From assembly GCA_950106755.1 (NCBI GenBank), contig OX467082.1, positions 9,238,001-9,302,000 of the forward strand: DNA of 64,000 nucleotides, given 5' to 3'. The stretch comes from Climacium dendroides (lineage: Eukaryota > Streptophyta > Bryopsida > Hypnales > Climaciaceae). The notes under the pieces were generated by a model. The model was not told the DNA's origin, made no database searches, and was given only the letters and a program-made list of their open reading frames with translations. The stretch's first letter is position 1. Each line of letters begins with the position of its first letter. The position numbers and the translations under genes were made by a program. Positions 7,213-61,740 of the stretch are shown one piece after another.

Positions 7213-7373
7213 TGGGGAAGTTCGTTAAAATGGGGGATTCCATGTGCCATTTTTAGACCGCCCGGGTTGAAACCCCAAAAATGTCATCTAGGGAAGTATA
7301 GATTTCAAAGCCTGATCTGACCCGTAAAAACTGCCAAAGCTGCGGAATTTCGCCATTTTAATGAAACTGCCCA
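7213..7373. mobile_element. MITE, TGGG..TTCATTAAAATGG family (copy in arm B)
   Basis: Mirror copy of the element at 1,335-1,495, with the same internal deletion. It lies 539-699 bp upstream of the GLP B start codon. Confidence 0.7.
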
Positions 7374-7747: not shown

Positions 7748-7757
7748 AATAAATAGC
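7748..7757 (+). promoter_or_regulatory. TATA-like box of GLP copy B
   Basis: AATAAATAGC lies about 155 bp before the ATG at 7,912, in a block conserved in all four copies. This implies a 5' leader of roughly 120-130 nt. Confidence 0.5.
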
Positions 7758-7911
7758 TCATCATACAGCCGCAATTCACCAAACCTTCATCATTCGCAAC
7801 GTACACCGAGTATATTGTGCACTACCACTGAAGCGAGCTATCGATCGATCACAGTTTCTCAGTTTGGCGTTCGTGTTCTTGCTTCAGTTGCAGCTCTGTT
7901 AGTAGCTAGCT

Positions 7912-33332: not shown

Positions 33333-33899
33333 GGTATCCTAACCCCAGGTTTTATACTTTCCCACTTTCCTCACCGTCGAGACTAGCCGTTTTGTAAATA
33401 GCCGTTCCTCGGTAATCCCGGAAAATCAGACCGTTGAACGGTTCCCAATCTCTTCCGATAGATCCGTTTCACCCACGTGTGAACTGATTGGATTCCGGTA
33501 TGGTGTCCGTTGGCTTCCGGTACGTTCCTGGTTACTTTTCCCGTTGATCCTGATGATTCCAGAATGATTCCCGGCCTCCAATCCGGTTCCGGTTTTTGGG
33601 AAGAATGGGAAACTTTGAGTTTCTCCTTAAGAGGGTTATCGTTTAAGCAATCCCCTAATTGTTCTAAACAATAATTTTGGTAATACTTTGAATTTCCTTT
33701 AGGGGAAACCAAAATTTTTACCCTTATCTAGATACTTATCTAGATTACTAAGTAACTAGTCTAACCTTTACATTTCGTTCTCCCACAGGGTTATTCTAAA
33801 CTAATACAAATACAATACAAGTATGGTACAAGACACGAGATACAGGGTATAGATATGAGTAAAGAATATATTTCATATCAAATGCCACCTCCACCTTCA

Positions 33900-38500: not shown

Positions 38501-38571
38501 TCCACTATCAAGCTCCCATGAATGCGCTATTTCCGACACTGAATTCAACCGAATGCGAGTTTCCAAGGTTA

Positions 38572-39976
38572 TCAACCCCAGTAACGAGGCGTTCCGCTCC
38601 TCAAATCCTTCACAGTTGCGGCGTTCACCCCGAACGACCTCTCAATCACAGCACTGGTGATATTGGGCACGAAGATCTGGTTGGCCGTGAACAAGAACCC
38701 AGGACTCTGCGACGTCAACGTGTTGAACGAGGTGGCGGTTTCGTTCCCCACGTTGAGCTGGAAGTGCTGGCTTCCTCTCGGGAAGACGGTGAAGTCGCCG
38801 ACTTCGAGAACGGAGGCGAACAACTGGTCGTCGTCGCTGATGAAGCCTGTGTAGATGGAGCCTTTGACTACGAAGAGAGTCTCCGAGGCGCGAGGGTGGG
38901 TGTGGAGGGGGATGACGCCGCCAATGTCGAAGTCCAGGCGTGCGTGGCTGACGCCCATCGTGTTGAGACCGGGCAAATGTTGAGCTAAGGCCAGGTCGGC
39001 GGTGGCTCCCGTCTCGGACACGGAGGTCGGGTGCGCTGCGGGAAGCACAACACATAGTTAGGTCTATGAATCGAGCCGAGGATAATATACATCACTAATC
39101 ATGTGCACTAGAGGGGAGCCCATAACAAAAGAGAGATCCAAAAATTCCAGAGACCCAGCATAATCCATTGTGCATCCCAGGAGTTTCACTACTGGAGTAG
39201 GATCGAGTAGAGCCTGACATTCCATGCTGAAGCGTCGAAATTCCATGGTTGCAGAATGGACTATTTGGATTCCGTACTTCAGCTAGCTTCGAAATTCCAT
39301 GGATTAAAGACGGACTATTTTTGGATTCCACACTGAAGCTTCGAAGTGAATTCCATTAATTGGTGCACTATGGACTATTTGGATTCCATACTCAAAAGTT
39401 TCAAAATTCCATGGTTGTACCATGGACGAATTGGACTTCGCTACAGTCATACCCCACTGAAGTTAATCATAGAAAACACCACACATGCCGGAATCCGAAG
39501 CGATACCCCACAACAAACTTTCAAGACTGCCCCATAGACAGCACAAGTTACAACCTCACAAGAGTCACAGTTCGAACATCTCACAAGAAATCAATCCTAA
39601 GAATTTACGAGGGGTAGTCCCCTTCGACCAACAATTTGCAGCTCCTCGTTGCTCGATCAAATCGAGGATAACGTGATTCCTATTCCGGCCCCCAACCTCC
39701 TAGGCATTGATTTCTAGGTTCCATTGTCAAAATTAATCAAAACTGACAAGAGTACGTGAATACGGATTGGGGATTACCAGGTTTGCGGAATCCGGTGTAC
39801 GTGAAGTCCTTGGCGGTGACAGTGTCTCGGGCCTTGCACGGGAACCCATTCATCACCACCGTGGACGTCAGATCCGCCACGCAGTAGTCCTGCAGGGAGT
39901 CGGGATCCGCAGCCTTCGCAACATGCAGTGCGCCCAGAAAGGCGCAGGCGATCACAAGCCAGTACATGGCGGCCAT
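38572..39976 (-). CDS. Germin-like protein copy C (complete, two exons)
   Basis: Exons are 39,778-39,976 and 38,572-39,035 with a GT-AG intron in the same place as in copy B, giving 220 residues. All manganese ligands (H111, H113, E118, H157), both cysteines and the signal peptide are kept. It differs from B at about nine residues, for example HVAKAADPD for QVAKATDPD, HARLDF for HLRLDF and VVKGS for VLKGS. The stop is reached through a different codon context, and the 3' flank is unrelated to that of B. An intact, probably functional paralogue in the same family. Its head-to-head partner D is truncated. Confidence 0.93.
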
Positions 39977-40130
39977 AGCTAGCTACTAACAGAGCTGCAA
40001 CTGAAGCAAGAACACGAACGCCAAACTGAGAAACTGTGATCGATTGCTAGCTAGCTTCAGTGGTAGTGCACAATATATTCGGTGTACGTTGCGAATGATG
40101 AAGGTTTGGTGAATTGTGGCTGTATGATGA

Positions 40131-40140
40131 GCTATTTATT
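40131..40140 (-). promoter_or_regulatory. TATA-like box of GLP copy C
   Basis: AATAAATAGC on the minus strand at the same distance from the ATG as in copies A and B. Confidence 0.5.
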
Positions 40141-40514
40141 CCCGACCCACGGATCGAAGCTACGTCCCTTTTCTCGTCAGCGAGCAGTAAATCGCGGCAT
40201 GTCGAAGCTGCAGCAAGTGTGCTTGTGAAAAGCCGACAACTTTACACATGGCGCAACTGTGAATAGTTTCGGCTCTTTTCGAAGGAGGTTCAACAGTGCA
40301 CTTACAAGACAGTTTACAGTTTCCTCAAATCTTTACCTTGCAAATTCACAAAGAAATGAAAGAAAAAGCACACGAAAATCTACATTTACATTTCCAGAAA
40401 GACTGATTTCGATTTGTCAACTAAAAAATCATGGTTCCTAATTGTAATTTTGACTCTACCTATGCACATTACTGAGCTTTAGTGAGTAGTTTTCGATCAT
40501 TCTCTTGACCTGGG

Positions 40515-40806
40515 TGGGCAGTTTCATTAAAATGGCGAAATTCCGCAGCTTTGGCAGTTTTTACGGGTCAGATCAGGCGGTCTGAAATGTACAAGTTTCC
40601 TATATTTCTTGGATCTATATCATTCCTAGATGTCTGAGATCTACAACTATCATAGATGGCACTCTCATAGTTCACACCGTGCAATCTAAAATCTACAACA
40701 ATCCTAGACTTTGAAATCTGTACTTGCCCTAGATGACATTTTTGGGGTTCAATCCGGGCGGTCTGAAAATGGCACATGGAATCCCCCATTTTAACGAACT
40801 TCCCCA
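40515..40806. mobile_element. MITE, TGGG..TTCATTAAAATGG family, long form (arm C)
   Basis: Ends as in the copy at 1,335-1,495, but with an additional internal block of roughly 120 bp containing ATCTACAACTATC-like words. The same long form is at 60,957-61,248 in arm D. Confidence 0.7.
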
Positions 40807-40855
40807 TCTGGGCAGATTGTCAAAGCAAGCACATTGGTAGCTTGGCGCTGTAGAT

Positions 40856-41041
40856 CTACTCGAGCGTCTGGGTCGTGAGTAACTTTGCAGGTTCAGTGGT
40901 GGTGCAGACGAAGGGAGTGAGGCGGCACAGGATTTGCATATTCAAATCGACGGAGAGGTTCCATGCTTGCAAAGGTGACATGAGGAGAGTGAGCAGAAGC
41001 ATGAAATGGTTTAAAGTAGCTGACGTCAGTTTCATGCTCAT
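40856..41041 (-). CDS. Small putative secreted peptide ORF upstream of GLP C (doubtful)
   Basis: 61 codons starting MSMKLTSATLNHFMLLLTLL: a signal-peptide-like start, then a short tail with two cysteines. The D copy (60,722-60,907) encodes the same peptide. The frame is open further upstream in both. It may be a leader-region ORF or an old exon; expression is unknown. Confidence 0.3.
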   Translation of the reverse strand: MSMKLTSATLNHFMLLLTLLMSPLQAWNLSVDLNMQILCRLTPFVCTTTEPAKLLTTQTLE

Positions 41042-41943
41042 GCTCGTGGGAGTTGCTGAGGTCGGCACGTACGTACTCTGACTACCTTCGAGAAGAATCC
41101 TCCACTGAGCTGGAGGAAAGGGGGAGTCGGTATTAGAGCGGGCTTCCATGTGGAGTTGGAGGCTGGTGGAGTTTGCCAATCACCGGTGAAATGGGCGTCC
41201 CTATTTTCCAAGAACGCCCATTTGATCAATGATCAGCGGGCTTGATTGGCCCCCAACTCCATTTAGATTTTAAAAGCTCATCCTTGGTATTGTTTTGGTA
41301 CGGAACCTCTATGGAGCCCATTTGAGCCTCTCATTGGACAAGGAGAGGTATGATTGTTTTTTTTAGCACAAGAAATGTATGATTAGAGGAGATCTAAGCC
41401 CACTAGAAGACTACCATTTCTCAAGATGTTCCCATAAGTCCACCTTTGTTATTGGTTTTTGTGGGAACAAACTCCATGTGGTCAAAACATTGCCACATTT
41501 GAGAAGGAATTTGTTGTATGTAGATAGTAATGTTAGCAAGGTTGTTTTGGCAGAGGACGTGACAAAGTGACAAATAGTTGTCAGACAACGTCTAGACGCT
41601 AGATCCCTCATAACATCTAGTAAAGTCTAATTTAAAGTTGACTTTTAAATAAATTAACCTTCATTTGTGATTTTGACATATTTAAGTCTTGTTTTAGTAA
41701 AGTGTCTCAATTTGATGAACACATATTACATTCTAAATTTAAACTCATAATTATAGTAAGATTTCAAATTGTCTCAATTGATGCTAATGACCTTATTAAA
41801 CAACAAAAAGAGCTTATAGACATCTTGGAATGACCACGACATGCAACATTAGATTTCAACCACATCATCCCAACCGAAAAATGTATTAGACATAACAATC
41901 TTGAATGTCAATGTAAAGTAATTAGCTCCTAAAGGTTAGATTA

Positions 41944-42116: not shown

Positions 42117-42454
42117 TGATCGCAAGATATTAATGTTTGAAAACATCATATTCATTAAAATGAGAGTTTTCCAATGAAATGGGAGTTGCGGAAGAGACTT
42201 TCAACCATGAATTTAATATACTTGTAGATCAATGACTACCAGGAAAGCATTACAATGACACAGAAAGCGCATACGGAAGGTACAAATTCCAAAATGGAAG
42301 GTCAAAATTGTGATTTCTTCATAATTTATAGGAAGTCATCAAATATACATGTATTGGATGTATGCACTATAAACATAAAGTAATCCATGTACTAAACTAC
42401 TACTTCCATCGTGGACTACACTTGTATAAGATACATATGATGTAAAACGTAGGG

Positions 42455-43400
42455 TTTAGGAAGCACTACGACTAAGCATTGGGACTTTTGTAAAATTGGC
42501 AATTGCATCCAGAAGATGAAGGCTTCGTGACCAAAAGGTTATGAGCTTGCCTTTATCAACAGCAGAGACAAACGTAGGGATTGTCAAAGCCCGGAAATTG
42601 AAGAGTTGAATACCAACTATTACCCGACCTAATATTCTCAGACATTGCACCGGAGAAAGTGCAATGCAAAAGATTATTTGGTGAGGCAACAGTTGTTATT
42701 CAACTCTACAACATCCGGGCTACGACAACGTACTGTCCATAATGACTATGAGGTCCACGATTGTCAAAGCCCCAAAAATTGTAGAATCGAATACCAATTG
42801 TTCCCCTAGTTGAGCCAATTCGTAGTAGAAGAGAAAGGAAACATTATATAACCTTAACTCTCAGCTACTCTTCGAATGTACTCTCACACACCACAATGTC
42901 CAAAAAGCAATGTATGAGTGTACATTAGAAGAATAGCTGAGAGTAAAGGTTATATAATGTTTCCTTTCTCTTCTACCACGAATTGGCTCAATTATGTACA
43001 TAGTCGGGTCTAAGACATCTTAAAAGTGGAAAGGGAGAAAGCAAACATCATATAACTCGACTCACACCCCTACTCATCAAGTACTCTCACACACCACAAT
43101 GTCTAAAGAGTAGTGTATGAGTGTACTTGATGAGCATGGTGTGAGTTGAGCTATATAATTTTTGCTTTGTCCATTTCCACTTTCAAGCTCAGTTGTGCAT
43201 TCAATTGGTTCCATGTGCAATGCAAACGATTATTTGCTGAGGGAACAGTTGATATTCGACTCTACAACTTCCGAGTTACGACAACCCCTACATTATTCTC
43301 TGCTATTGATCAAATCGGGCTCAAGGCCTTACTATGGTTTAGGATTTATTATTTTTCTACTCTCTACACAAACTTAGGGATTGTCGAGCCTACATGTACA
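42455..43400. repeat. Cluster of nested foldback repeats
   Basis: Segments such as AGAGTTGAATACCAACTATT (42,603) recur inverted near 42,690 and 43,240. A clear hairpin of about 75-bp arms spans 42,815-42,990, starting TTGAGCCAATTCGTAGTAGA. A second hairpin spans 43,022-43,185. Both loops contain TCTCACACACCACAATGTC. Probably old MITEs inserted into one another. Confidence 0.6.
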
Positions 43401-44458
43401 TAATTAGGACCTCTTCTACATACAATTGTACATGAGCTACAAGATGTAGTCCTCAATTTCTCCCGAGCCTTTAGAATTTTTTTTCTCCGACTGTATCTGT
43501 CCGAGGTTGCCTCCATTGCGCTTACAACGACCTTCTCTTCTAGATGCCCCAACTGGGAGTTGAAACATCAGTACAAAACGATCCACTATGTTTTTGTTTC
43601 TTCAACCTCCCTTGTTCCAACGGAACCTGTGGATGTGGAATGGACTGCCCAGAAGCAATAACTGCAACCGATTCTCCAAGCGGACTATTTGGAAACTTGA
43701 ATTTCTCTTCTACTATGGACGTTGGATAATTTGTGTCTCCATAAAGCTCACGCCCATCACCCAATAGTTTAGGGTCATCTCGGACCATCACCCATGTATT
43801 GTTATAGAACATCATTACCGAGCAGTCCTAAATGTATAATGTATGAACCCCTAGTATTGATGGAAGACTATCACTTATAAATTCCCAACATGTACTTCTT
43901 TGTAGACTGTCACTCTACAATATGAACACATAATATGAACAAGTATTATATGTGTGATTTACATCGCTGTAACTCCCTTGCCTTGAGAATCTCAGGCCCC
44001 CAACTGTATCCTGTATTTGGCTTCTTGTACTCATTCCACCGTTGATGCCTTTGCCGTTGTAAGAACATGCGGTCCGATGCGTCGAGATGACGAGCATCGC
44101 TTCGAATTCTCTGCACCCCATCATGTGTCTTAGACATCCGGACGCTCCCTGACATGACATACCTGGGACGGCGCCTTGTACTATCATAAGTAGCTCCGAT
44201 ATGAGTATCACGAGATCCACCAGTATCATGAGATCCACGAGAGATCCCTGACTTGTTCCCTGGTGCAGGAATTTGAGTTGTGGCCTCGTCATAAAGCTTC
44301 TTTTTTGGCGCCATGTCTGATGCCACCGGCGATAACTGAGAAGCAAGTGGCCCCCCGCAGCGCAAAGGAGAAGGTGAGTAGGACTTTGGCAGACGTGGGC
44401 CATTATTAGGCGGACTATCCACCACACCGTCATCTACGGGCTTAGTAGAATAGTCCAT
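43401..44458 (-). CDS. Open frames downstream of the ParB-methyltransferase gene, unidentified
   Basis: Two minus-strand frames (43,540-43,815 and 43,946-44,458) may be 3' exons. The second begins near MDYSTKPVDDGVV and is basic and serine-rich (KKLYDEATTQIPAP, TRRRPRYVMSG), without known domains. It continues in frame upstream through a TAG near 44,518. Splice links to the main gene were not established. Confidence 0.3.
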
Positions 44459-44519
44459 TGTGGAGTTTGCTGTTGCCGCCGAGCACAGAAAGTTCCCCCT
44501 GCTCAGGATTGCATACTAT

Positions 44520-44590
44520 CCATAGTCCAATATAGAATCCGCCGACGCAACGCACGGAAGGTGATCATCTCCATCAGTTGAATTCCATAC
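44520..44590 (-). pseudogene. Possible protein-kinase subdomain IX fragment (weak)
   Basis: In one minus-strand frame after a TTCTAG acceptor the sequence reads VWTYGIQLMEMITF, which resembles the DVWSFG..L.EM.TG block of plant protein kinases. The match is about 14 residues and a different frame is used by the neighbouring ORF, so chance or a tiny captured exon are both possible. Confidence 0.2.
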
Positions 44591-44890
44591 GTCCAGACTC
44601 TAGAAGCAAATCATATTTATATCATGACCACGAAATAGAACTGTATAGCATTGAGAACATGAAACACCATCCACAAACAAACCTAGAACGTAAATCAATC
44701 ACACCATCCAAGCAACTAGGAAGCTCCAATCGAGCTGATTTGAGACACAAGCACTAAACCATGACTATTTTATTAGAGGCATCAGGACTGAAATTACAAA
44801 TCTCCAGAAAGTAGGCTTAAGTCAGTTCGACTCGAGCTAAATTAGACCAGAGTATGGAAATCGAGAACCTATGCCTCCCTTAGCGTAGTC

Positions 44891-47800
44891 CTAACGAATG
44901 CAGGAAGATGCCTGCACGACCTCCATCAACTTATCGTACTCCCTCTTCTGTTTTCTATCGTCACAAAGCATGCGGCGTCCAATTCGATTGGCCGCATTCT
45001 CTCGGAAGGACTTAAGTCCCTCTTCACGAGCCACGTGAAGATTCTGGAACCAAGGGAGCAGGACATCCAGGAGGAAAGTGTCCTTCACACCATTACCTCT
45101 ATATGACCATGACTCCAGTAAAATGACGTTCTCAGCATTGTTAAGAATGTGCTTCATGGGACTGTCATCTACTATCACGGTATTTTGGGACGAGAACCTC
45201 CCCCGGTAGCCAGTGAACAAGGTCTCCAAGTTTTTAAGGAAGAGTTCCTTATTTGTGCCTGGCTCCCTGAATGTTGTAATTCTGGAGTTTTTTTCCCTAC
45301 ATTTCAGAGTCGTACAAGAGGTCTGTCCTAGTTTGACTACCGGTAGGTCGAGCCCCTTAAAGAGATAGGCGGCCACTTCATCAGTGGTGGAAGTCTTCAT
45401 ACTGCTCCACACTGAAATTGTAGCTATCTCTCCTAACGCACGTAAGAAATCAGAACACCCGGGACGGACATACACTAGCTTTGGCCCCACGACTATTGGC
45501 TCAGTAGCAGAGTGCGGTTGGAATGCGTCCCCAGTATGTTTGGCCCAGCCCTTCTACTTGTGATCTTCACAGGCGCACAATACCCCATTGAGGTCCAGGA
45601 CGACGTTGATCCACTTGTCCACAGCCCTGGACTCCAATGGAAGATTGACCACCTCCTTATGTCTTGGAAGATCACGTGGAGGATCAGATTCCTGATAAAC
45701 AATGGACGAATGTGGAGCTAGTTATTATCCTTCATTCATAGCCTCTAGACATCGCGCTAATTGAAACGGTCGTTCAGATTTGTAGATGTCACTAAACAAA
45801 CACAGAATTCAGAATGTAAAATTCAAGACATACCTTCTGCTGCGAGGTCTCGGCTGTCTCCGCAGTAACATCCCTTGTCGTAGCGGTTGGCTCGGGTATC
45901 ATGACCTCGAGAAGATCGGCATCAGGTATGACACTGTCTTCAAGTAGAAGAGCGACACTATTTAAGGATTCAGGCTTGTCCTCTTTGAAGGTGACATTCT
46001 GATCCGTCGGTTCGGAAGTGAGTACACCTGATGCAACAGTAGGTGGCAACAAATCTACAACATTGACAACGCCTGCAAGTCAGGAGTGTACAAAGGAAGT
46101 GTTGTAAGGAATCCGGGTATTACCACTTTATATAAAAATGTTTTGATGTACATACACAATGTCTGAAAATTTTGAACTCCATGGTTCGGTCCACTAGAAG
46201 TTCAACTATATCAAAATTGTTGAGTTGTCTATGAGATAACTCTAAAACTACATACAACCCACGTCAAAAACCAGATCGAGTTGAGCTAAAACTGTACAAG
46301 AACACCGAGTGATCATTGAGGTGCACTTGAGCCGGACTCTTGGCTAGGAGACGCGGTTGGTTGGTCGGGGGTCTCCACCACATCACCACTGCCTACCTCT
46401 GGAGGAGCAAGTGCACACTGCGCCTCCACAGGTACCGGTGGCGCAACCGCGGATGATGGTGGAGGAGGTGGTGTCCTAGGCAGTGGATGCGAGGGTGGTG
46501 CAGGCACCGCGAACTCTGTTGGGCCTACCTGACCTGAAGGTGGGGCCGAAGACGACGCTGATGGTTGGTTTTCAAGCCTCAGTTGAGGTGCCGCAGGTTG
46601 GACCTCGGCCATGGGCCTCCCACCCTTCATCCACAAAATCAAGGCGTCTAACTTGTCGTTAGCTTCCTTGGAATCTTGCAGCATGAACGTTTGCATGCTA
46701 TCTAGCCTCTTGTTCATCTACTGCTGCTGCAGGATGTTCTCCGCCCGATCTTGGAGCCGCTTCTCCTCGATCTCAACAAACCTCCTCTCGAGGATGTCAT
46801 CCACGAGTGAAGTCTTCCTTCTCTTCCGCGGATGGGTGGATGACGGAGTTGACGACGGTTGCGTCTCAATCGCGTCTCCAGTTGACGCAGAGGAGCCACG
46901 ATGCTCTGTTGGTGTTTCACGAACAGGCGATGAAGGAGGATCCGACATTTCATCTTGCTGGCAATCCTCTGCGTTGTCATCGGAGCTGGAGATCACTTCA
47001 GGCTCCTCGATAGGTCTCTTGTTCCGACGACCAGTGGATGGAGAATCCCACGGGCCCCTCCGCATTGTCTTCGCGGGCAAAGGTGTCGAATGAGACTCCC
47101 GCTGCCTACTTGACTTAGGCTCCTCCACTTTGTAGCCTGACTCCAGAAAGTCGGCCCTGTCAAGCAACATGGCCGTGGTGACGATGTCGTTCCAGAAGAG
47201 GGAGTCCTCTTTAACTCCAACTGCGAACACATTCACGGAACTCATCTGCGGTGACGGAAACGAGCATTTAGCATGAGTAAACTATCATATCAGCTCAACT
47301 GGAGCTGAATCAACGGACAATTAAGCTCGATTTGAACTGAAGCGACACTCATAGTGAGTTTGAAGGAATGTGAGGGATGAGGGCATACCACCACAGCGCA
47401 TGTGAACTTCCCTCCGGCAAAGACCGAGAACACACTGTCACCAGCCTTGCAGAAGGACTTCACCACCCACAAGTAGAATTCCATGCGAAGCTCTACGTTA
47501 TATATGCGGAATTCCAGTTCATTGTACCCGCGCGGCGTGTTGAAAACCGATGTGTTCGGAGCCCAAAATACATTCGGGATTTTGACGTCCGTGCAGTAGT
47601 CGGGTTTGAATAAGAACATAAGCAAGACCTTGGCATGGGACTTTGCCTTTGCCGACGACATGTCACCCAGACGCTCGTAGTCCCCGGGCATGTAGTCCAC
47701 ATACTCACACCTGAACTTGTGCAACTCCTCGTGGTTCTGCACAAACGCCGTTACTTGCGTCTGCTCCACTGCATCCGCACAGATAAAAAGCCAGACTGGG

Positions 47801-50310
47801 ACCTCCTCCAGCAGGGGCTTGCGCTTCCCCATCAACGACAGCATGACGGTGTTGAAGTAGGGAATCGCAATTGTGCCCTTCTGCTTGGACAGCACTCCCG
47901 GAATCAAACGGAAGTCAATGACCCCGACTTTCAGATCAGCTGGGGTGTCCACAGTCCACACACCGGTTGGCCATGCCGTGTGTCTGTCGTCCTTAATGTT
48001 GTATGGTGCATAGTACGCCACTACTGACGGCGGGACGAAATTCTTCCTTTCTCTCAGGAAGACCTTGAAGAACTCAGCAGCGTGCTTAGAAATTTCTTCT
48101 GTGGTCTTATTCTTGGACTTCAGCTGCTTAATCTCCGAAAAGAACTCCTTCCCAAGCCTTTCGAGGAGAACATTCATTGTGGCCGAGGTGACGAAATGTT
48201 TGGACTTAAACTCCTTCCATTTCTCCGATACGACCTCATTGTTCGCGTTTAGGAGTCCGAGTGATGGGTCAATTTTGTTCAACTCCTTCTTCACGAACTG
48301 TTTTCGTTTGCGCCTCTCAATCCAGGCACTCGATGAGTAGCAACTTTCCAAAACTGACGATGACTGCTTGATCGTCACTTTTGGATGAGGCTGCTTTCTT
48401 GTGTCGCCAGACTTATTCAAAATATGGTTGGCGAGCTTCTTCAGGTCCTCGTACGTGAGATTCCCGAAGAATTTGAAATACTCCTTATTGAGCATTCCGT
48501 TCTCGGTTTTCCATGAAGGCTTGGTGTTGAACTTCTTGAGCGTGTTTGGGTCAACGAGCTCGCCATGTGCCGCACTGGAGATGACCTCACTCCAGAGGTT
48601 GAAGACTTCGTCTGGTGCTGTGATAATTTTTACCTCGTTGGTTATCACCAGACTATTTTTTGCGTCTTTTCCTTTAGCCTTGGTCTGACCCTTGGCAACG
48701 TCGATCATGGAGAAACGCATCTGCATGGCCTTCAGGAATTCCTGCAACGAATTGTCACATTGTCTGACAGTTAATGAATGAGCTTGACTGGAGCTGAACT
48801 ACTTCGGGGTTTCGAGGGAGGGACATATCCCAGTGCAAATTGAGCTCGAGTCGAGGTGAATACTTACCGCGTATTTCATCTTATTGATGTGCGCCTCCTT
48901 GGACCACCGGGAGCTTGTAACCGATCCAGAGGAGGTGTCATCCTTGGGGTTCCGCGGTTTCCCCATCTCCTCCCAGACCTTCCGTGCCCCCAGAATGTTC
49001 GTGGCCCACAATGGCTGGATTGCTTGGAAGTGGTTCACGCGGTTGTAATACGCTGAAATGGATCGCAGAATTTCAACGTCCTCAGTCCACACAATGTAGC
49101 AACTCCATGCTCGGTAGTCGTTGACGATCTTGGGCGCGACATTGTACTTGGGGTCCTGCATTAGTTTGCTTGCCCACACACTGTGCTGCCCGTTTATTAT
49201 GTAGAAATCGCCGTCCTTGATTTCTTCCCACGAATCATCACCGTCTCTTGTGGGCTTGTTGACGGGCATCACGCAAAGGGTCTGGCGATTGCTGTGGTCT
49301 GGTATATTTACGAGCCAGTGCATCATGTCTTCGACGATGCGATCCTCCTTGCTTCGGATGTTCAACGTGGCCGGTGCCTGAATAAGTTTGTTGATGGGAA
49401 GGGTCTTCTTCTCCATCTTATACAAGAACACGTCCGTGCAAGCAGTCCAAAACCTCTTATAGGCCTTGTTGGACTCTTCGTAGTCCGGCTTCCTATTCAC
49501 CCGCAAGGACTCGGGAATGTCACTGAAGTCGCAGGCGATGTCGTCAACGCTGGACTGATCTCCCAATTTCTCCATGGACTTTTGTTGGGAGGATGAGGCA
49601 AGGTTACTGGTTTGCCTTTGTTGTCTCCCGGGATCAGCAGGCTTTTTGTTTCGTTGCCCCCTCCTCTGTGTATCTGAAGGAGGTTGCTTGTCAGTGGAGA
49701 TCTGACTCCCTCCTTGGCTCTCCACATTCAAGGACACGGTGCGGGCAGTTTTGCTTTCCCGCTCTATGGTTATTTTTGTTTTCAGACAAGCAAAGTCTTG
49801 GAACATTTGCCTGAGCTTCCTACATAGTTTGTGGCCTGATATTGGATCTCCGTTTTCTTTCAAGAAGACCCTCTCGTTCACCTTCTCCTCGAGCTCCCTC
49901 ATGTGGTCCTGATACGACGTAGTTTCAAGACTCTGGATGAGATTTGTCACGCGGAATGGTATTTTCTCGGAGTTGAAGTGGATGGTGAAGTTGTATTGAT
50001 CTTTGGCGAGGACACCCAAGACAGCCGTCTGACAGTGAATTTTAATCATTGGCGGAATGTCTTCTACCACGTCCTTCACTTGCTCTTCGTAGGACATGGG
50101 GAGGAAGCAGCTCATCCCCTTGTATTTCACGCAGAAGGCAATGAGCTCTGTACAGGGGATCATGGTAAGGCTCTAGCACTCGACCCTTTCGGGGTAAGTG
50201 AATTCCCAGTACTCCCCGTTGTCGAGGAAGTCGTCCCCGTCATCTTCACTAACCTTCAAGACTTTTGTCCTTGTGAAGTATTGTTGCAACTTCTCAACTT
50301 GGCTATCCAT
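44891..50310 (-). pseudogene. ParB-like / DNA methyltransferase-like / HAD phosphatase fusion gene
   Basis: Exons 48,868-50,310, 47,389-48,741, 46,306-47,245, 45,834-46,072 and 44,891-45,691 join in phase with GT-AG introns, about 1,590 codons. Residues about 300-445 fit a ParB/sulfiredoxin-type fold: LPINKLIQAPATLNIRSKED, then DFYIINGQHSVWASK (372-377 corresponds to the GQHR box). Exon 2 resembles a DNA N4/N6-methyltransferase in permuted order: a possible degenerate catalytic motif DTPA near 746 and the AdoMet loop GDSVFSVFAGGKFTCA near 915-925, followed by NVFAVGVKEDSLFW. A serine/proline-rich linker with KRPIEEPE and HPRKRRKT basic patches follows. The last exon is an FCP1/NIF-type HAD domain: DLNG near 1,358, VWSSMK, and VDDSP near 1,500. 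In-frame stops are at 50,173, 46,718, 46,313 and 45,554. No DPPY is seen, so catalysis is doubtful. Confidence 0.6.
48742..48867 (-). other. Intron 1 with two AGCTCGA-type palindromes
   Basis: GTAAGT donor and TTGCAG acceptor. It contains CTCGACTCGAGCTC near 48,842 and CAGCTCCAGTCAAGCT near 48,781. The second palindrome lies about 39 nt before the acceptor, close to its position in intron 2 and in the 5' leader. Confidence 0.7.
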
Positions 50311-51350
50311 CTGCACGTTGTACTGTGTTCAGCGTGTTAGCTTATTCATTTAGCTCGATTCGAGTTGATTGATTCAGTTTAATTATCGCTGCATTTCCTT
50401 CTACATGCGTCAATGTCTATTTGTTTACTACATGTTGACTATCTGTCATTCTTTTGTTAATCCTCTCATTTTCGCAAGTATGTTTTTGTCATTGATGTTT
50501 TCAAGAGCTCGAGTCGAGCTTCCTGGTTCGCTGTTTTTCTCACCATCGAGTGTCTGATTTAGATTTGTTTCATTATCTACTTGTATTGTGCTATATTAAT
50601 ACTGGGAGAGCTCGAATCGAACTCTTAGGTGGCGATTTCTAGTATCATTGCGCTTCTGTTGTCACTTTTGTGTGGTTGGTTTTCTGTTGTTGTAAGAGGC
50701 ATTATGAAGTGTCATGTTTTACTGGGTTGAGCTCGATTCGAGTTGATTGTCTGGTTTGTTCTGGTCGTTGCACGTTTTAAAGTTTGTGTGATATCGATTT
50801 TTTAACGTTATAGTTGTTTTATTATTTTTGACGGGGACTTTTAGGCTTTGTGAACTTCTCAATGTCATGTTCTTAGTTTGTATATTAAAGTTAATCTTCT
50901 TGACTTTGTGGACGCTTGTGTGGTTTTCACATATTTTTCTCTGTCATTATTTTCATTTTTAATGAAATTGAGTTGTTTTAGCTCGATTCGAGCTAATTTA
51001 GTTGTGTTGTTAAATGTATCTTTGGTTATTCGTTACATTGTTGTTGTTTTAGTCGGTTTGATAATAACATTACTCTGGATTGTTGGACCTTCCTGTTAAA
51101 AATCAGCTCGATTCGAGCTGAGTACAGTGGGATTTATCATTGTCTGGAGAGTCGTTCCTTTTGGTTATGAGTGCATTTACTGTACTTTTCTTCTTTCTTG
51201 CTATTGCTAAGGTCCGAAAATCAGGATTTTGCTCGAGTCGAGCTGGTTGGGTGGTTCTACTTGTTGCATATTCAGCTCGAACCCATCTGATTAACGGGAG
51301 TGCATTTTCGACATTCAGTGCTGTTCGAGCTGAATTCGCATTTGACTATC
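50311..51350. repeat. Leader region with dispersed AGCTCGATTCGAGCT palindromes
   Basis: Full or near-full copies lie at about 50,352, 50,505, 50,609, 50,730, 50,980, 51,105 and 51,231, with half-sites near 51,273 and 51,323. Several spacings are close to 125 bp or twice that. The surroundings are T-rich and non-coding. On the minus strand the region ends at a GTGCAG acceptor just before the ATG at 50,310, so it may be a 5' intron or promoter of the ParB-methyltransferase gene. Confidence 0.75.
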
Positions 51351-52520
51351 GCTAAAGCTAACCCTATAGTTGACCCTGACCAGAATGTTATCAACAGACC
51401 CTAAGAACTCCTAAGCGAACCCTACTAAAACCCTACTCAAACCGTAACACAGACCTTGGTAACCTCTTTAAACCCATGATAAAAAAAATGATTCAACCTC
51501 TACCAGATGCAAAACAAATGAAATAGGCATCATACCACTGAGAAATAAGTCGATGAAGAAGAACCACTGAATGCAGAACTACTACCACGGAATTAAATTA
51601 ACAGAAGCAAAGTCCCATCAAATTGTCCCAAATCCGCAATACTAAACCAGATTAACTGTACCTGCATGGTCAAATGTGCAAACAAGTTTAGGCTGTTGCA
51701 GGTGACATCATATGCAATTCAAATACTTCTTCAATTGCATACGGAATAAGAACACTACGAACCTAAAGCCATTCATACTAAATAATAAAACACAGAAATT
51801 CAAAAACATGAAAACTCAATCCAATACATACAGGACAATAAACCAAGTGACCTAATTCAGGTAGCACACAAAACCGTTAACTTTGCACCTTCTGGGTCTA
51901 AATTTCCCTCCCTAAAGATTCCTATGAAAAATTGCTATAACATTTGAGTTTGAAGATGTTTTGAGTACTAGTATCAAACCCAATGTTCGATATTCAAAAC
52001 CATGAAATGTCACTTGAGCATGCTCTAAATCCGGAACAGGAGTTGCAGGTTGTTGTTTGCCACGGCCGCATACTCCAGAAGCGCACTCGAGCTTGCCTTA
52101 CCGCATGCTCCAAAAGCGTAGTGGCACTCACAAGAAGGATATGGGGGGCATTGATTCAATTTACAGTTCTAGAACAACAGTCATGATCAATGGGAAACTA
52201 AGAAGGCAGCCACGGTAATATTTTTGCTGCAAACCAAAGGAAAACAGAGATGAAGTTAGCACAACGGGTTACAAATCAACTAAACCAATTCTAAATATCT
52301 GCTTATCAGACAGAGTAGAAGTCTTAGGGTCGCCTTCAAATTCCAATGGAGTACGTTCTGAAAACCCTAGCACCTACAAGTTTTTGTCTGCCTTGTCGCG
52401 TGCTCCAAAAGCGCACTAGAGAAAGATAGAAACAACTCAAGCTAATACAATGCACTCACTTCCAATTTCCGCGCACTCCCCAAAAAATGCAATGCACTCA
52501 CAGCAGGAATATAGAACACA
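51351..52520. other. Non-coding part of the 15.5 kb insertion
   Basis: The word AACCCTA or ACCCTACT occurs several times near 51,358-51,440. CGCACTCGAGCTTGCC near 52,083 echoes the palindrome half-site, and words like CATGCTCCAAAAGCG repeat near 52,100 and 52,400. No gene seen. Confidence 0.5.
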
Positions 52521-52521
52521 C

Positions 52522-52765
52522 TCACACAATCACACGGCGCAGCAATACGAACACGATCACACGGCACAACAACACGAACACGATCACACAGCGCAGCAAC
52601 ACGAACACGATCACACGGCGCAGCAACACGAACACGATCACACGGCGTAGCAACAAGAACACGATCACACGGCGCAGCAACACGAACACGATCACACGAC
52701 GCAACAACAAGAACACGATCACACGGCGTAGCAATACGAACACGATCACACGGCGATCACATGGC
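52522..52765. repeat. 27-bp minisatellite, about nine units
   Basis: The unit is CACACGGCGCAGCAACACGA plus ACACGAT. Because 27 is a multiple of three, the array stays open in several frames and yields repetitive peptides (TAQQHEHDH or TITRRSNTN). This is read as a DNA repeat rather than a protein gene. Confidence 0.92.
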
Positions 52766-52844
52766 GCAGCAACAGGGAATGAGAAAAAAAACGGAATGCA
52801 AAGGAGGGCGCCAAACCCTAACCCCAAAGCCGGCTTCTGATAAT

Positions 52845-53140
52845 ACCCGACCCCCCGTTGACACCTGACCCCCTTAGGTACCCGACTCACTTGACCCCCT
52901 TAGGTACCCGACTCACCTGACCCCCTTAGGTACCCAACTGGTACCCTAATCCAATTCACTTCTGGTACCCTATCCCGACCCGTTGCCTGATAACCGACCT
53001 CCCGATCATACTCGACCCCTTCTGGTATACTAACCCGCCTTGTTGCCTGGTGATCGACCTCCCGCTCATACCCGACCCCCTCTTACCCGACCTCTTCTTA
53101 CCCGACCCCTTCTGGTGCTCGAACCGGGTCCAGACCAGGT
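52845..53140. repeat. C-rich minisatellites
   Basis: CTGACCCCCTTAGGTACCC units (about 26-28 bp) repeat three times, followed by degenerate CCGACC..CTTCTGGTA units. Non-coding. Confidence 0.8.
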
Positions 53141-53745
53141 CCCTTTGTAACGACTACATTAATGACTATTAATACTAGTATGTTGTCATTACTCTAATGA
53201 TGATAAATATTGTTACCTATATTAATTTATTTAGAAAAGTCATAAGTTTTCATTCTTGATGAATATTTTTACCAACTATGGATGTAGAGTTTTCCCACTT
53301 AGAATGATACTAGGAGTTATGGTTTTCGTAAAAATATTTATGAAGAGTAAAAACTTATAGCATTTCTAAAATAATTAGTGTGGATAACACTATTTATCAT
53401 CATTAGTGTAGTGTTACTTGGACCTTTCTTTTGCATTCTAAACTTCGATTTGTTACCATTTTTCATTGTATTCACTTTTTTGACCAATAACCTTTTTGAG
53501 CATGTCATACGCTTTTTGGATTATACATTTTCTTTTGCATTTTGATGAAAAAATAAAGTAATAGTAAATGGAAACTTGTAAAAAGATTTATACCCAATAA
53601 ATCAATACACTTGTGAAGATTTTAATTCTAAGAATGTCATTATAATAATAAATGATGGATTATAATGTTTCCATACCAAAGCAGGCACCAACTAAGTAAT
53701 TCCAATTTTATCAGAATTTGTGATATTATAGGAATACAATAGGCA

Positions 53746-53995
53746 GGCCATATTCATTAAAATGAGCCAATGAGTAGTCTCAATTTTATCTTTGACTCGA
53801 AGATAGATCGTCATAACTCTTCAATTTTGAGACTATTTGATAATTAGAGACTTTTATATATTAATATATATAAAAACCTTTATATTCAAATATTGCACTC
53901 TCATTTTATCTTCGACTGGAGGATAAAATCACTGTAATTGTTATAGGGTTGAAGTCTCAAAATGACCATTTCGTCTCATTTTAACAAATATGGCC
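53746..53995. mobile_element. MITE with GGCCATATTCATTAAAATGA ends
   Basis: The inverted ends read GGCCATATTCATTAAAATGA and, reverse-complemented on the right, GGCCATATTTGTTAAAATGA. The interior is also partly self-complementary. The ends resemble those of the 15.5 kb insertion (CATATTCATTAAAATGAG near 42,148), which hints at a shared transposase. Confidence 0.65.
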
Positions 53996-54249
53996 TTTAG
54001 CTTGTACAATATCACATCTTTAAATCTTGGGAAATTACAAAAACATTATGTTCAATGAAGAGAGTTGAAATTCAGAAGTAAAAATAGAGTGATATAAGAT
54101 AATTGGCATTTCCAAATTTAGAATTGAAATCTTCACAAGTGTATTGATTTATTGTATGTATACATATAATATGTAAATGAAGTTTGAAGCCAAAATAAAC
54201 AATTAGCATCCTCTCTAATGTCATTGTATTAATCCACTCTAATACCAAT

Positions 54250-55700
54250 TCTTTTCCACAAACATGTAGAACTTGTGGGAAAATACTTTGGGCCCATCTA
54301 AATTGGCCTTGATTGATTTTCATGACCACTACTAGAAATTTCAGCAATTTCAGTCGATTCAGTCGCGTTGATTTGGCCATTTTTTGACAGAAATTTGCTG
54401 ATTTCTGTTGATTTCAGCAAATTTCTGTCAAAAAATGGCCAAATCAACGCGACCGAATCGACTGAAATTGCTGAAATTTCTAGTAGTGGACATGGGGACC
54501 CAAAAATACAGTCAATTTAAAGACTTTACGTTTGAAAATACATGTGGGACACCCATTTATTTTTTTCACACATGCATTGACCAAATCCACAACCCAAAAA
54601 AATTTAAAACTTGTGGGAAAATACTTTGGGCCCATCTAAATTGGCCTTCATTGATTTTCATGACATGGGGACCCAAAAATACAGTCAATTTAAAGACTTT
54701 ACGTTTGAAAATATATGTGGGACACCCATTTATTTTTTTCACACATGCATTGACCTAACCCACAACCAAAAAAAATTTAGAACTTGTGGGAAAATACTTT
54801 GGGCCCATTTAAATTGGCCTTGATTGATTTTCATGACATTGGCACCCAAAAATACAGTCAATTTAAAGACTTTACGTTTGAAAATACATGTGGGACACCC
54901 ATTTATTTTTTTCACACATGCATTGACCTAACCCACAACCAAAAAAATTTAAAATTTGTGGGAAAATACTTTGGGCCCATCTAAATTGGCCTTCATTGAT
55001 TTTCATGACATGGGGACCCAAAAATACAGTCAATTTTAAGACTTTACGTTTGAAAATACATGTGGGACACCCATTTATTTTTTTCACACATGCATTGACC
55101 AAATTCACAACCAAAAAAAATTTAGAACTTGTGGGAAAATACTTTGGGCCCATCTAAATTAGCCTTGATTGATTTTCATGACATTGGCACCTAAAAGTAC
55201 AGTCAATTTAAGACTTTATGTTTGAAAAAATATGTGGGACACCCATTTATTTTTTTCACACATGCATTGACCTAACCCACAACCAAAAAAATTTAAAATT
55301 TGTGGGAAAATACTTTGGGCCCATCTAAATTGGCCTTGATTGATTTTCATGACATTGGCACCTAAAAGTACAGTCAATTTAAGACTTTATGTTTGAAAAA
55401 ATATGTGGGACACCCATTTATTTTTTTCACACATGCATTGACCAAATCCACAACCAAAAAATATTTAGAACTTGTGGGGAAATACTATAGGCCTATCTAA
55501 ATTGGCCTTGATTGATTTTCATGACATTGGTACCGCAAACTATAGTCAATTTTAATAGTGTAGGTTTATAAATACATGTGGGTCACCAAATGAATGTATT
55601 TTTTTGGACACATGCATTGACCAAAACCACATACTAAAAGAATTTAGAGCTTGTGTACACAGGTTTTTGGACCATCTAGATTGGCCTTGATTGAATTTCA
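54250..55700. repeat. Satellite, unit about 172 bp, about eight units
   Basis: The words CTTGTGGGAAAATACTTTGG, GATTTTCATGACAT, CAGTCAATTTAAAGAC and CACACATGCATTGACC recur at spacings of about 170-176 bp from 54,268 to 55,647. The first interval is lengthened by a CACTA MITE. The last two units are the most diverged. Non-coding. Confidence 0.92.
54327..54488. mobile_element. CACTA MITE inside the satellite
   Basis: A near-perfect hairpin starting CACTACTAGAAATTTCAGC and ending in its reverse complement. It is flanked by GAC (54,324-54,326 and 54,489-54,491). Neighbouring satellite units without the insertion read straight through CATGACATGGGG, confirming the target site. Confidence 0.92.
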
Positions 55701-55963
55701 TGACGTTGGTATCTGAAAGTTTTATGACGTTCGTACCACAAGGTACTATAACGTTAATGACGTTCGTACAGGCTTGGCCTTTTATGTATGAACTTTGAGG
55801 CACGTGGAAATATTCATTTACATTATTTTTTTGATTAGATGTCTATGGATTGTTAAAGAAGAGCGTGATTGCAATTTCTATGAATTTTTCCTTTTTCATT
55901 TGCACTTTTATTGCATATTTTTTTTGACTTTGTGAGACAAAGTGCAGGCTTAGTCAGTTTAGC

Positions 55964-56842
55964 ATGAACCTTGAGCCACGTGGAAATATTGAATTACATT
56001 ACTCTACTGGATGTCCAGTTATGAAGTACAAGATGTTGTGCACTGATGTTGATTGGTTACCAAAGGGGACTGGTAATGGAATGAAATTGTGGAAGGAGGA
56101 CTCGGAAGGGCAAAGTTTGTGGCCACGTGGAGAGCCAAAAGTAGTTTTGCCAAGTCCAATGAAAGGGACGGAGGACATCTTGAAGGGCATATCCGGATTT
56201 GTAAAGTACTGGGAGCATTTGTGCAATCAAAATCGCACTGGGGAGTACCGAAGACGTTATGAGCACGTAGTGCACTACTGGCGTGGCGTCAAGATAGCAT
56301 TGCTAGAACCACTACCTTCATCTTCTATTTTAAAGGATGGTTTCTGGCTAACTAGCCGTGTTCAAGCTACTCGGGTGGATGAATTAGATGAAGACGGCGA
56401 GGACCGTGAATAGTTCGGAGAAGATGATGCATACGTAGGCCCTTTGAGAGGTTGTCCACAACCATCCTTTAGGGTGGGTCGAGATCTCTTTGAAGGATAT
56501 TTTGTTGCAGTTCGACCCGCAGAAGGTGACAGTCATCTTGTTTGGATTGCAAGGGCATTGTCTGATTCAAATTGTAATCCGGAGAAACCTAATTGTATAT
56601 GCATTCAGTACTTCCGTCCAACATCGAGAGATGAAGATGTTCAAGACTTCTACACTGGATGGGATAGTGAAAGAGGTCTACGTTGGAAAGTGGATGAAAC
56701 CGAACCGCCACTTTGGGAGCATACAAATGCTCTTATGACAACGTGGAAGTCTAACATTCGGAAGGATACTCGCCAATGCATGATTAAAATTCCAGCTGCT
56801 CAAATTGACATCATCAACCGAAGCCTTGCATCATATACTTGA
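55964..56842 (+). CDS. Unidentified ORF at the right end of the 15.5 kb insertion, one TAG
   Basis: One frame of 293 codons (including the stops) with a single TAG at 56,411. The N-terminal half has tryptophan-rich blocks (VDWLPKGTGNGMKLW, HYWRGVKIALLEPLP). An acidic hinge follows (DELDEDGEDRE). The C-terminal half (DLFEGYFVAVRP, WIARALSD, IQYFRPTS) has the layout of a small barrel such as BAH or chromo-like domains found in transposon proteins. That is only a resemblance; no family is claimed. It lies on the opposite strand to the ParB-methyltransferase gene and may be a second element protein. Confidence 0.45.
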
Positions 56843-57617
56843 TATTTGTAGCTATGTATTGATGTATATTGCAAGTTTTATAAATATGTTGTTTCCATCG
56901 TCATGTTTTATAAAACGAATGGAATTCATATATTAGAGTAGATGGTGTAGGTTTGATTTGATTGTTTGTATTTCATTGCTTGGTATTGCATAAATGTGTT
57001 GAAGTGTATGTTTTGTGTTTACAAAACAATGTTTTTTCTGTTCAATATTCTTTATTTTGTATTCTTCAACTTTGTTTTATCTATTTTTAACTTCATTTTA
57101 TTTTGTGTCTATCATTGAGTACATTTTATTTGAAATTACATTGCTATTGGGGAGCAAAATGTAGTGGAAATATCCACTATTTATTTGGTCAACATGTAAA
57201 GCACTTGTCACATTCTGGGTAGGGGGCCGGTTGGTTGTTACAATTTTCCTGCCTGCAAAGCTCACTTAGCAGCACCACGTCATGTTTTTTCTCTCATGCG
57301 CTCATATGTCCTTGACGGGAATCGAACTCGGACCGCTTCAATGAGATGAACAACCCCTTACAACAGACTGCGGAGCTCATGACTTGGTGTTCAGAAAATA
57401 ACACAATCTTTATTTATATTAATCAGAACATTTACTCTAAACCAAATTACATGTGTTTGAGTAGACAATCACTCAAAAGACTCTCATTTTAATGGAAATT
57501 GCAAATTACAACTAGAAAATGTAGCCTAAACTGTGGAACATTATAATTCATTATTTAGGGTCTAAATGGACTATATTATTTTGAGAGACTCCAAACCTCT
57601 CAAAATATTGAATATAG
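56843..57617. other. Right end of the insertion, non-coding
   Basis: AT-rich DNA. CTCTCATTTTAATGG near 57,480 mirrors the left end of the insertion, and a short hairpin (TTGAGAGACTCC..CCTCTCAA) lies just before the 57,618 boundary. Confidence 0.5.
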
Positions 57618-58017
57618 TGTTTGAAGTAAAAAGAATCCTTTGGGGGCCTACGAAAAATCATGCATCTACAATTCACAAGGTCACATCCATATGAAAAAAT
57701 ATCCAAAACGGTATCTACTATTTGGATTCATTTTTCAAGGCAAGTTGGTTACATCCTTAAGAATTTAGTTATGGAATTGCAAAATGCCAATCCCAATAGT
57801 TGTATTGTTGTACTAAACAATGTATATCCAATGTTTTTATTTTTTTTCAAAAATATTGAAAATTAAGTCAAATAAAGGACTTTAAAGTTTATTTAGAATA
57901 GAGAATCTATAACTACCCACAAACTAAAACTCCTCATAACTTACATCTCATTAAACAAAATGGAATAATTCAAAGAATTGTCCATACAAATATGGTATAA
58001 ATGGTTGAGATCCTAGT

Positions 58018-60067: not shown

Positions 60068-60721
60068 TATATATATAATTTTAATAGGTGATCATGTGGG
60101 CTAAAAAAATATTTTTATTTTTATTTTTTAAACTTTATAATTGCACATTTGTATGCAATCAAACAACCCTACATAAAGTCTAGATTTCCTTGAATGCATT
60201 GCAATTGTATCCTAAATCTACACACATAGAATTTCATATCTACAAACAACAAATTCCTTCTCTAATGTGGCAATGTCTTAAAAACATTGAATTCATTCCC
60301 ACAAAACCAATAACAAAGGTAGGCTTGTGGAAACATCTTGAGAAACGGCAATCTTCTAATGGGCTCAAATCTCCTCTAATCATACATTAATACCAAGTTC
60401 ATACTTTTGTGCTTAAAAAAAACAATCACGCCTCTCCTTGTCCAATGAGAGGCTCAAACGGGGTCCATAGAGGTTCCGTACCAAAACAATACTAAGGATG
60501 AGCTTCTAAAATCTAAATGGAGTTGGGGGCCAATCAAGCCCGCTGATCATTGATCAAATGGGCGTTCTTGGAAAATAGGGATGCTCATTTCACCGGTGAT
60601 TGGCAAGCTCCACCAGCCTCCAACTCCACAACCGACTCCCCCCTTTCCTCCAGCTCAGTGGAGGATTCTTCTCGAAGGTAGTCAGAGTACGTACGTGCCG
60701 ACCTCAGCAACTCCCACGAGC

Positions 60722-60907
60722 ATGAGCATGAAACTGACGTCAGCTACTTTAAACCATTTCATGCTTCTGCTCACTCTCCTCATGTCACCTTTGCAAGCAT
60801 GGAACCTCTCCGTCGATTTGAATATGCAAATCCTGTGCCGCCTCACTCCCTTCGTCTGCACCACCACTGAACCTGCAAAGTTACTCACGACCCAGACGCT
60901 CGAGTAG
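60722..60907 (+). CDS. Small putative secreted peptide ORF in arm D (doubtful)
   Basis: Encodes the same peptide as 40,856-41,041 (MSMKLTSATLNHF, then a hydrophobic core). It lies upstream of the truncated GLP D promoter on the same strand. Confidence 0.3.
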   Translation: MSMKLTSATLNHFMLLLTLLMSPLQAWNLSVDLNMQILCRLTPFVCTTTEPAKLLTTQTLE

Positions 60908-60956
60908 ATCTACAGCGCCAAGCTACCAATGTGCTTGCTTTGACAATCTGCCCAGA

Positions 60957-61248
60957 TGGGGAAGTTCGTTAAAATGGGGGATTCCATGTGCCATTTTCAG
61001 ACCGCCCGGATTGAACCCCAAAAATGTCATCTAGGGCAAGTACAGATTTCAAAGTCTAGGATTGTTGTAGATTTTAGATTGCACGGTGTGAACTATGAGA
61101 GTGCCATCTATGATAGTTGTAGATCTCAGACATCTAGGAATGATATAGATCCAAGAAATATAGGAAACTTGTACATTTCAGACCGCCTGATCTGACCCGT
61201 AAAAACTGCCAAAGCTGCGGAATTTCGCCATTTTAATGAAACTGCCCA
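60957..61248. mobile_element. MITE long form (arm D)
   Basis: Same long version as at 40,515-40,806, in mirror orientation; includes the internal block absent from A and B. Confidence 0.7.
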
Positions 61249-61621
61249 CCCAGGTCAAGAGAATGATCGAAAACTACTCACTAAAGCTCAGTAATGTGCA
61301 TAGGTAGAGTCAAAATTACAATTAGGAACCATGATTTTTTAGTTGACAAATCGAAATCAGTCTTTCTGGAAATGTAAATGTAGATTTTCGTGTGCTTTTT
61401 CTTTCATTTCTTTGTGAATTTGCAAGGTAAAGATTTGAGGAAACTGTAAACTGTCTTGTAAGTGCACTGTTGAACCTCCTTCGAAAAGAGCCGAAACTAT
61501 TCACAGTTGCGCCATGTGTAAAGTTGTCGGCTTTTCACAAGCACACTTGCTGCAGCTTCGACATGCCGCGATTTACTGCTCGCTGACGAGAAAAGGGACG
61601 TAGCTTCGATCCGTGGGTCGG

Positions 61622-61740
61622 GAATAAATAGCTCATCATACAGCCACAATTCACCAAACCTTCATCATTCGCAACGTACACCGAATATATTGTGCACTAC
61701 CACTGAAGCGAGCTATCGATCGATCACAGTTTCTCAGTTT
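61622..61740 (+). promoter_or_regulatory. Orphan GLP core promoter and 5' leader (copy D)
   Basis: The AATAAATAGC box and about 100 bp of leader are intact and nearly identical to copy B, but sequence after 61,740 (AACACAACTAGAATG) is unrelated. The promoter may still drive transcription into the following DNA, which is antisense to the captured exons. Confidence 0.75.

Follow-up and report, generated by a model that had tools for sequence, protein, structure and literature searches.

A ParB-like fusion gene in a moss DNA transposon

We analysed a stretch of 64,000 nt of the moss Climacium dendroides (OX467082.1, positions 9,238,001-9,302,000), called here the window, with all coordinates given along its forward strand. 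A gene of five exons runs on the minus strand from 50310 to 44891 and encodes a protein that joins a ParB-like part, a DNA methyltransferase-like part and an NIF/FCP1-like HAD domain. This ParB-like gene belongs to a mobile element, a DNA transposon of mosses with terminal inverted repeats (TIRs) (Table 1). An initial annotation of the locus had called it a plant transposon gene, and this is borne out by the TIRs, the target-site duplications (TSDs) and the copies with common ends, the host plant being a moss. The extent it gave, 44891-50310, covers the gene but falls short of the whole element, 42142-57621.

All peptides quoted in that annotation are located on the minus strand within 44891-50310. 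The five exons were likewise found, with GT..AG ends at intron 1, intron 2 and the intron between exons 4 and 5, but the junction of exons 3 and 4 is provisional and three in-frame stops had been overlooked. With these stops and about 4.3 kb absent, the window copy is decayed.

Ten further copies of the element were compared with the window copy. Similarity to the window ends sharply at 42140-42142 (3' end) in nine of the ten, and the 5' end lies at window position 57621 in the four copies read far enough upstream. TIRs and 4-bp TSDs are present in all four copies with both ends read, the TSDs in gene orientation being TTCA (window copy), CATG, AAAA and GAAC. Three full copies with both ends measure 18.9-19.2 kb, compared to 15.5 kb for the window copy. 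Among the best 85 of 1,222 candidates scored in the 412.6-Mb genome, at least 68 match exon 2 at 85-100% identity (partial matches and the window copy included) and at least another 17 match at 50-56%.

A third open frame of the element has no function assigned; its version in copy C33 finds a match in Ceratodon P0022 (101 aa aligned at 42%, E 1e-11). Between both genes the element contains tandem repeats of 173 bp (54489-55709) and 27 bp (52524-52755), and alignments to other copies suggest that their copy number varies.

The fusion is a normal state of the protein, not chance, because 12 of 22 moss relatives carry a precomputed NIF domain at a length of 1,379-1,587 aa. These 22 relatives (E 3.4e-98 or better in a search of 5.8 billion proteins) all come from Physcomitrium patens or Ceratodon purpureus, two mosses in which the fusion is also present, and they align along the gene. 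One Ceratodon cluster represents 139 sequences. With a profile, 87 matches were obtained (weakest E 3.8e-32), many being fragments of one exon on unnamed contigs. These 87 offer no distant bridge to bacteria, in a search whose filter requires shared five-residue words so that distant kin may escape. P0088, a fragment of the fusion protein, is listed with an assembly of an uncultured Leptolyngbya and is probably moss DNA in a cyanobacterial bin.

Palindromes in the non-coding parts of the element

The subfamily of the ParB-like gene carries a 19-bp palindrome, TCAGCTCGANTCGAGCTGA, in element promoters and introns. Allowing up to two mismatches, the pattern AGCTCGANTCGAGCT occurs 14 times in the window, where 0.09 would be expected; all sites fall within 44722-51244 and all are intronic or outside exons. 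Copies C33 and C5 hold 20 palindromes each. In C33, six are upstream of the frame of a second element gene, the DUF7869 gene described below, seven are upstream of the ParB-like gene and the remainder are intronic and 3'. The upstream sites lie 49-626 bp from the DUF7869 frame and 59-885 bp from the ParB-like ATG.

Over four copies, that of the window among them, the 72,885 bp of element sequence hold 73 palindromes and the 81,115 bp of flanking sequence hold none. Although 43% of the C33 element is coding, none of its 20 palindromes is (P 1.2e-5). Genome-wide we found 540 exact palindromes, with about 0.8 expected, compared to 0 for a reversed-pattern control. The palindrome is also spelled in 13 of 106 homolog proteins, whose gene calls seemingly run into introns (shuffled mean 0.83, maximum 5); in one of the 13, P0053, it lies away from the protein end.

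Divergence among copies is 0.035 at the sites and 0.048 in their surroundings over all regions. It is lower at the sites in the two promoters (0.029 vs 0.046 and 0.027 vs 0.056) and in the 3' part (0.000 vs 0.030), nearly the same in intron 1 (0.053 vs 0.058) and higher in intron 2 (0.066 vs 0.049).

We read one copy of each of two diverged subfamilies, A and B, with exon-2 identities of 52% and 56%. The subfamily A palindrome, TCAGGTCGNNNCGACCTGA, has one base changed identically in both arms and occurs at 14 sites (up to two mismatches, looser pattern); its pattern has 1,708 exact sites genome-wide and 0 for the control, and subfamily A has at least 89 exon-2 matches at 87-100% identity. The subfamily B variant, TCAGGTNGNNNCNACCTGA, is an imperfect palindrome with the outer bases changed alike, found at 11 sites (up to two mismatches) whose arms differ by 1-2 mismatches, three of them recurring every 217 bp. 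Each of these copies also retains, a short way past the exon-3 frame, one palindrome of the first type. The suggestion of the initial annotation that the element acts for its own benefit gains support from such self-specific palindromes, but modification of DNA, which it also implied, is not supported.

Predicted folds and replaced catalytic signatures

An AlphaFold model built on 98 of the 106 homologs, without eight rows that resemble retained ones (P0003, P0010, P0015-P0018, P0020 and P0021), reached a predicted local distance difference test score (pLDDT) of 71.6; with 22 sequences the score was 33 and the model unusable. Fold searches on the model support a ParB-like (ParB/Srx) fold and a beta-class DNA-methyltransferase fold with the motif order IV..I. 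The model places a helical region between them, in which ERRKRK is invariant in five aligned sequences (alignment A2). The fold matches include ParB, KorB and Noc. Three viral proteins match both folds over 635-647 alignment columns with a differing domain orientation (template modelling score under 0.32); one is named ParB/Sulfiredoxin of a phage and two are unnamed, and all three may be ParB-methylase fusions. These matches agree with the earlier view of ParB plus DNA methylase as a phage-type architecture.

For both of these parts the initial annotation thus finds support in the predicted fold but not in sequence profiles. No significant ParB or methyltransferase match was obtained in Pfam (scanned with the window exons and P0002, P0008 and P0010), NCBIfam, PHROGs or PDB profiles. 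A DGQHR match in NCBIfam (0.0085) covers residues 220-291 of P0093, ahead of its NGQHSV box at 369, and PRMT7 in the PDB profile search (0.05) is below significance. A tblastn search against 50,697 phage records returned one match only, with E 6. The FCP1/NIF domain was correctly recognised, with a Pfam match to PF03031 above the cutoff (E 2.2e-14); the domain of C33 has a single weak PDB match, to a C-terminal domain (CTD) small phosphatase-like protein (0.044).

The signatures expected of these folds are replaced in a conserved way. Among alignment rows covering the motif IV position, D is found in 51 of 51, followed by F/L in 51 of 51 and R in 47 of 50; [DNS]PP[YFW] is absent there in all 51 rows, and SPPY occurs elsewhere in one protein (P0083, residue 29). 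The S-adenosylmethionine (SAM) loop of motif I has G in 39 of 41 rows and K two places on in 37 of 40, corresponding to GxK instead of GxG. In the ParB box NGQHSV, 58 of 60 rows have Ser, by sequence register, at the place of the superfamily Arg; the ParB superfamily is described as having a conserved active-pocket arginine (PMC5512222). HAD motif I reads DLNG in the window and in all 10 homologs where an N-or-D pattern was found, that is DxN in place of DxD, and not DxDx(T/V).

The ratio of nonsynonymous to synonymous substitution (dN/dS) is 0.16 in exon 1 (10 copies in 45 pairs, stops in 3 copies), 0.19 in exon 2 (11 copies in 55 pairs, a stop in 1 copy) and 0.40 in the DUF7869 gene (3 copies in 3 pairs, stops in 2 copies), values that may be shifted by mutational bias at methylated sites. 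The protein is under selection, but probably not as an enzyme. Judged by its signatures it would have lost activity, and catalytic DNA modification is unlikely because the signatures are replaced in a conserved way while dN/dS is 0.16-0.19. The DNA-modifying activity proposed earlier was therefore not borne out.

Stops in the 68 listed exon-2 matches are 98 TAG, 11 TGA and 6 TAA. The TAG excess (98 of 115) would be in keeping with decay by C-to-T change where CHG sites are methylated, in copies that share stops so that the events are not independent.

A probable transposase gene

The opposite-strand gene is open in copy C33, with 958 aa and a DUF7869 match of E 7.4e-43. HDKMD, QxDN and GHTHxDxD are kept across 14 aligned relatives and look like a DDE-type catalytic core; no PDB profile matched DUF7869. 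We consider this protein the probable transposase of the element. Scoring the best 123 of 1,704 DUF7869 candidates in the genome, we found that for 43 of the 68 listed exon-2 matches an opposite-strand DUF7869 gene is located upstream at no more than 30 kb; 30 of these 43 partners lie at 10.6-12.6 kb, where 0.3 would be expected by chance. Ceratodon DUF7869 and ParB-like genes carry neighbouring locus tags. A literature search of partial coverage found no paper on the DUF7869 family.

Of the 123 DUF7869 copies scored, 80 are without a ParB-like partner among the 68 listed exon-2 matches. Examples with frames of 989 aa are those at C41:11690163, C41:12193049 and C32:213284. DUF7869 genes of this kind possibly represent a separate element lineage.

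Possible function of the ParB-like protein

We hypothesize that the ParB-like gene is the regulatory gene of a large family of moss TIR transposons and that its product binds the palindromes of the element, acting in anti-silencing in the manner of VANC or tuning transcription. This is a tentative reading, quite possible although we stop short of calling it probable. The protein would be a DNA-bound scaffold and not an enzyme, with ParB-like, helical, beta-class methyltransferase and FCP1/NIF parts whose catalytic signatures are altered. Its ParB-type region would recognise the palindrome in introns and ahead of each of the two element genes, and the bound protein would keep promoters and introns unsilenced or tune their transcription.

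ParB, KorB and Noc bind palindromes via a helical domain that follows the ParB fold. Because of this, and because the model has a helical region at the same place, the ParB-like protein is the simplest candidate for the palindrome binder. A hint in the same direction comes from contig C1, where one of six DUF7869 matches, C1:10505406, lacks both a listed ParB-like match nearby and an exact palindrome within 45 kb (a single case, judged by eye among the matches listed). The other five have listed palindromes within 10 kb; for one of them, C1:1046008, the nearest listed ParB-like match is 31 kb away.

In Arabidopsis, VANDAL transposons have VANC anti-silencing proteins (PMC10398659), whose motifs are found in introns and upstream regions and vary from one family to another (PMC5735166). 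The moss system is similar in that a non-transposase protein is encoded by the element, a short motif is dense in the non-coding parts of its own family, and the motif varies with the protein subfamily, by a symmetric change in A and in part in B (one copy each). Several points weigh against our proposal. The identity of the palindrome-binding protein is its weakest step. VANC motifs are 8-9 bp, tandem and in one orientation, unlike the dispersed 15-19 bp palindrome of the moss element, and homology to VANC (DUF1985) gave no Pfam match at E up to 1 among the window exons and the three homologs scanned.

Alternatively, the protein may be an autoregulator like KorB or Noc that represses or balances both element promoters and limits transposition with no role in silencing. 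The clustering of palindromes upstream of both genes and the fold matches to ParB, KorB and Noc speak for this, but a repressor would need promoter sites only and intronic and 3' palindromes are also present; a nucleotide-driven clamp is doubtful with an NGQHSV box that lacks the superfamily arginine. We regard this alternative as rather unlikely. An accessory factor of transposition, modelled on TNPA of En/Spm, would assemble the element ends with the DUF7869 transposase. In its favour, the ParB-like gene adjoins the probable transposase gene and is selected among copies, but the palindromes of C33 are far from the ends (the first at 3708, the last 2594 bp from the end) and the unpartnered DUF7869 match on C1, a single case among the matches listed, lacks exact palindromes within 45 kb, leaving this role clearly improbable.

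That the methyltransferase part is an active enzyme methylating element or host DNA is very unlikely given the motif IV and motif I replacements. Least credible of all is a host gene or viral remnant outside any transposon: NIF domains are common in plants and the fold list includes a ParB/Sulfiredoxin protein of Orpheovirus, a giant virus (E 2.1e-3), but TIRs, TSDs, common ends and intron positions preserved in copies argue otherwise, and no capsid or polymerase frame was noticed by eye in C33.

Returning to anti-silencing, it is conceivable, if on balance unlikely, that the protein is a triple pseudoenzyme derived from a phage-type ParB-methylase and a CTD-phosphatase fold, which would load on the palindromes of its family, spread along the element and shield it from silencing as a purely structural marking of self in the style of ParB/parS. 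Protein and palindrome would then diverge in step, each subfamily protecting only itself.

Relation to other systems

Operators of ParB, KorB and Noc are palindromic and the ParB box for cytidine triphosphate (CTP) is GERR. The moss protein differs in reading GQHS at this box and in having no partition partner noticed, and its operators are putative. With the phage and bacterial ParB-methylase fusions (PMC5512222) it shares the succession of a ParB/Srx-like and a beta-class methyltransferase-like fold; unlike them it has replaced signatures, a long helical linker part, a NIF domain, introns and a place in a eukaryotic transposon. Fungal TET/JBP DNA transposons (PMC12730594) similarly acquired a DNA-modification-type protein with a proposed escape from silencing, but theirs is a dioxygenase whereas the moss folds are catalytically altered, and the transposase differs.

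Sola elements have 4-bp TSDs. The moss element is like Sola1 in its TSD and in its occurrence in moss. Sola1 is tabulated for Physcomitrella in PMC9033089. The element, of about 19 kb and with extra genes, contrasts with bivalve Sola1, which averages 5.4 kb (PMC10294476).

Surroundings of the element in the window

Inverted repeats at 40023-41526 and 60237-61740 were considered as TIRs of a 21.7-kb element and rejected; they belong to larger duplications with germin-like gene segments, and the true element ends lie inside them. Near-identical direct and inverted duplications with germin-like (cupin) genes cover 1-9393, 38542-41830 and 60237-61740, and the transposon is inserted inside one inverted pair. 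Germin-like genes, named by eye, are at 8791-9318 (plus) and 38572-39057 (minus). Open frames at 14564-17489 (minus) resemble by eye a Copia-type retrotransposon polyprotein (integrase, reverse transcriptase). Two long frames of 314 and 189 aa at 31824-33338 (minus) are unassigned and perhaps another repeat.

Table 1. Features of the element and of the ParB-like gene in the window
Feature	Position	Strand	Remarks
Whole element, window copy	42142..57621	minus (ParB-like gene orientation)	15,480 bp; ends common to copies elsewhere, unique flanks beyond
TSD TGAA, left	42138..42141		
TIR, 3' end, AACATCATATTCATTAAAATGAGAG	42142..42166	plus	imperfect, ~25 bp
Third open frame MDYSTKPVDDGVVDSPP...	43946..44515	minus	no function assigned
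Two palindromes 3' of gene	44722..44838		at 44722, 44824
Exon 5	44891..45691	minus	NIF/FCP1-like HAD domain; DLNG at 45575-45604, WSSMK, VDDSP; in-frame stop 45556
Exon 4	~46072-45834	minus	5' end uncertain
One palindrome in intron after exon 3	46273..46287		
Exon 3	47245 to ~46320	minus	completes the methyltransferase-like fold, low-complexity region follows; in-frame stop 46720; 3' end uncertain
Two palindromes in intron 2	47292..47338		at 47292, 47324
Exon 2	47389..48741	minus	helical putative DNA-binding region, then methyltransferase-like fold
Methyltransferase motif I position, reads SVFSVFAGGKFTCA	47395..47436	minus	exon 2
Methyltransferase motif IV position, reads GVIDFRLIPG	47896..47925	minus	exon 2
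WIERRKRK	48301-48324	minus	in helical putative DNA-binding region of exon 2
Two palindromes in intron 1	48781..48857		at 48781, 48843
Exon 1	48868..50310	minus	N-terminal domain, ParB-like fold; in-frame stop 50175
ParB-like box YIINGQHSVWAS	49168..49203	minus	in exon 1; contains conserved NGQHSV
Seven palindromes upstream of ParB-like gene	50352..51244		at 50352, 50506, 50609, 50730, 50980, 51105, 51230
Junction of missing ~4.27 kb	56001..56002		stretch present in full copies, includes most of DUF7869 gene
DUF7869 C-terminal remnant	56002..56842	plus	broken by a stop
TIR, 5' end, AACACTATATTCAATATTTTGAGAG	57597..57621	minus	imperfect, ~25 bp
TSD TGAA, right	57622..57625		

Implications

A literature search of partial coverage found neither the moss element nor a plant ParB-methylase-NIF fusion described. 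The parts are each of a known kind; what would be new is their combination, together with self-recognition by a palindrome in a moss transposon. A large repeat family, whose proteins annotations call uncharacterized or FCP1-homology, is now named, and DUF7869 gains a likely transposase role. If the proposed function is true, mosses have built a sequence-specific self-protection of transposons out of parts of bacterial type, and the protein that serves it is not related to VANC. Because one genome holds diverged subfamilies whose palindromes differ, how selfish elements discriminate self from host DNA could be tested directly, for instance in Physcomitrium, in which gene targeting is routine.

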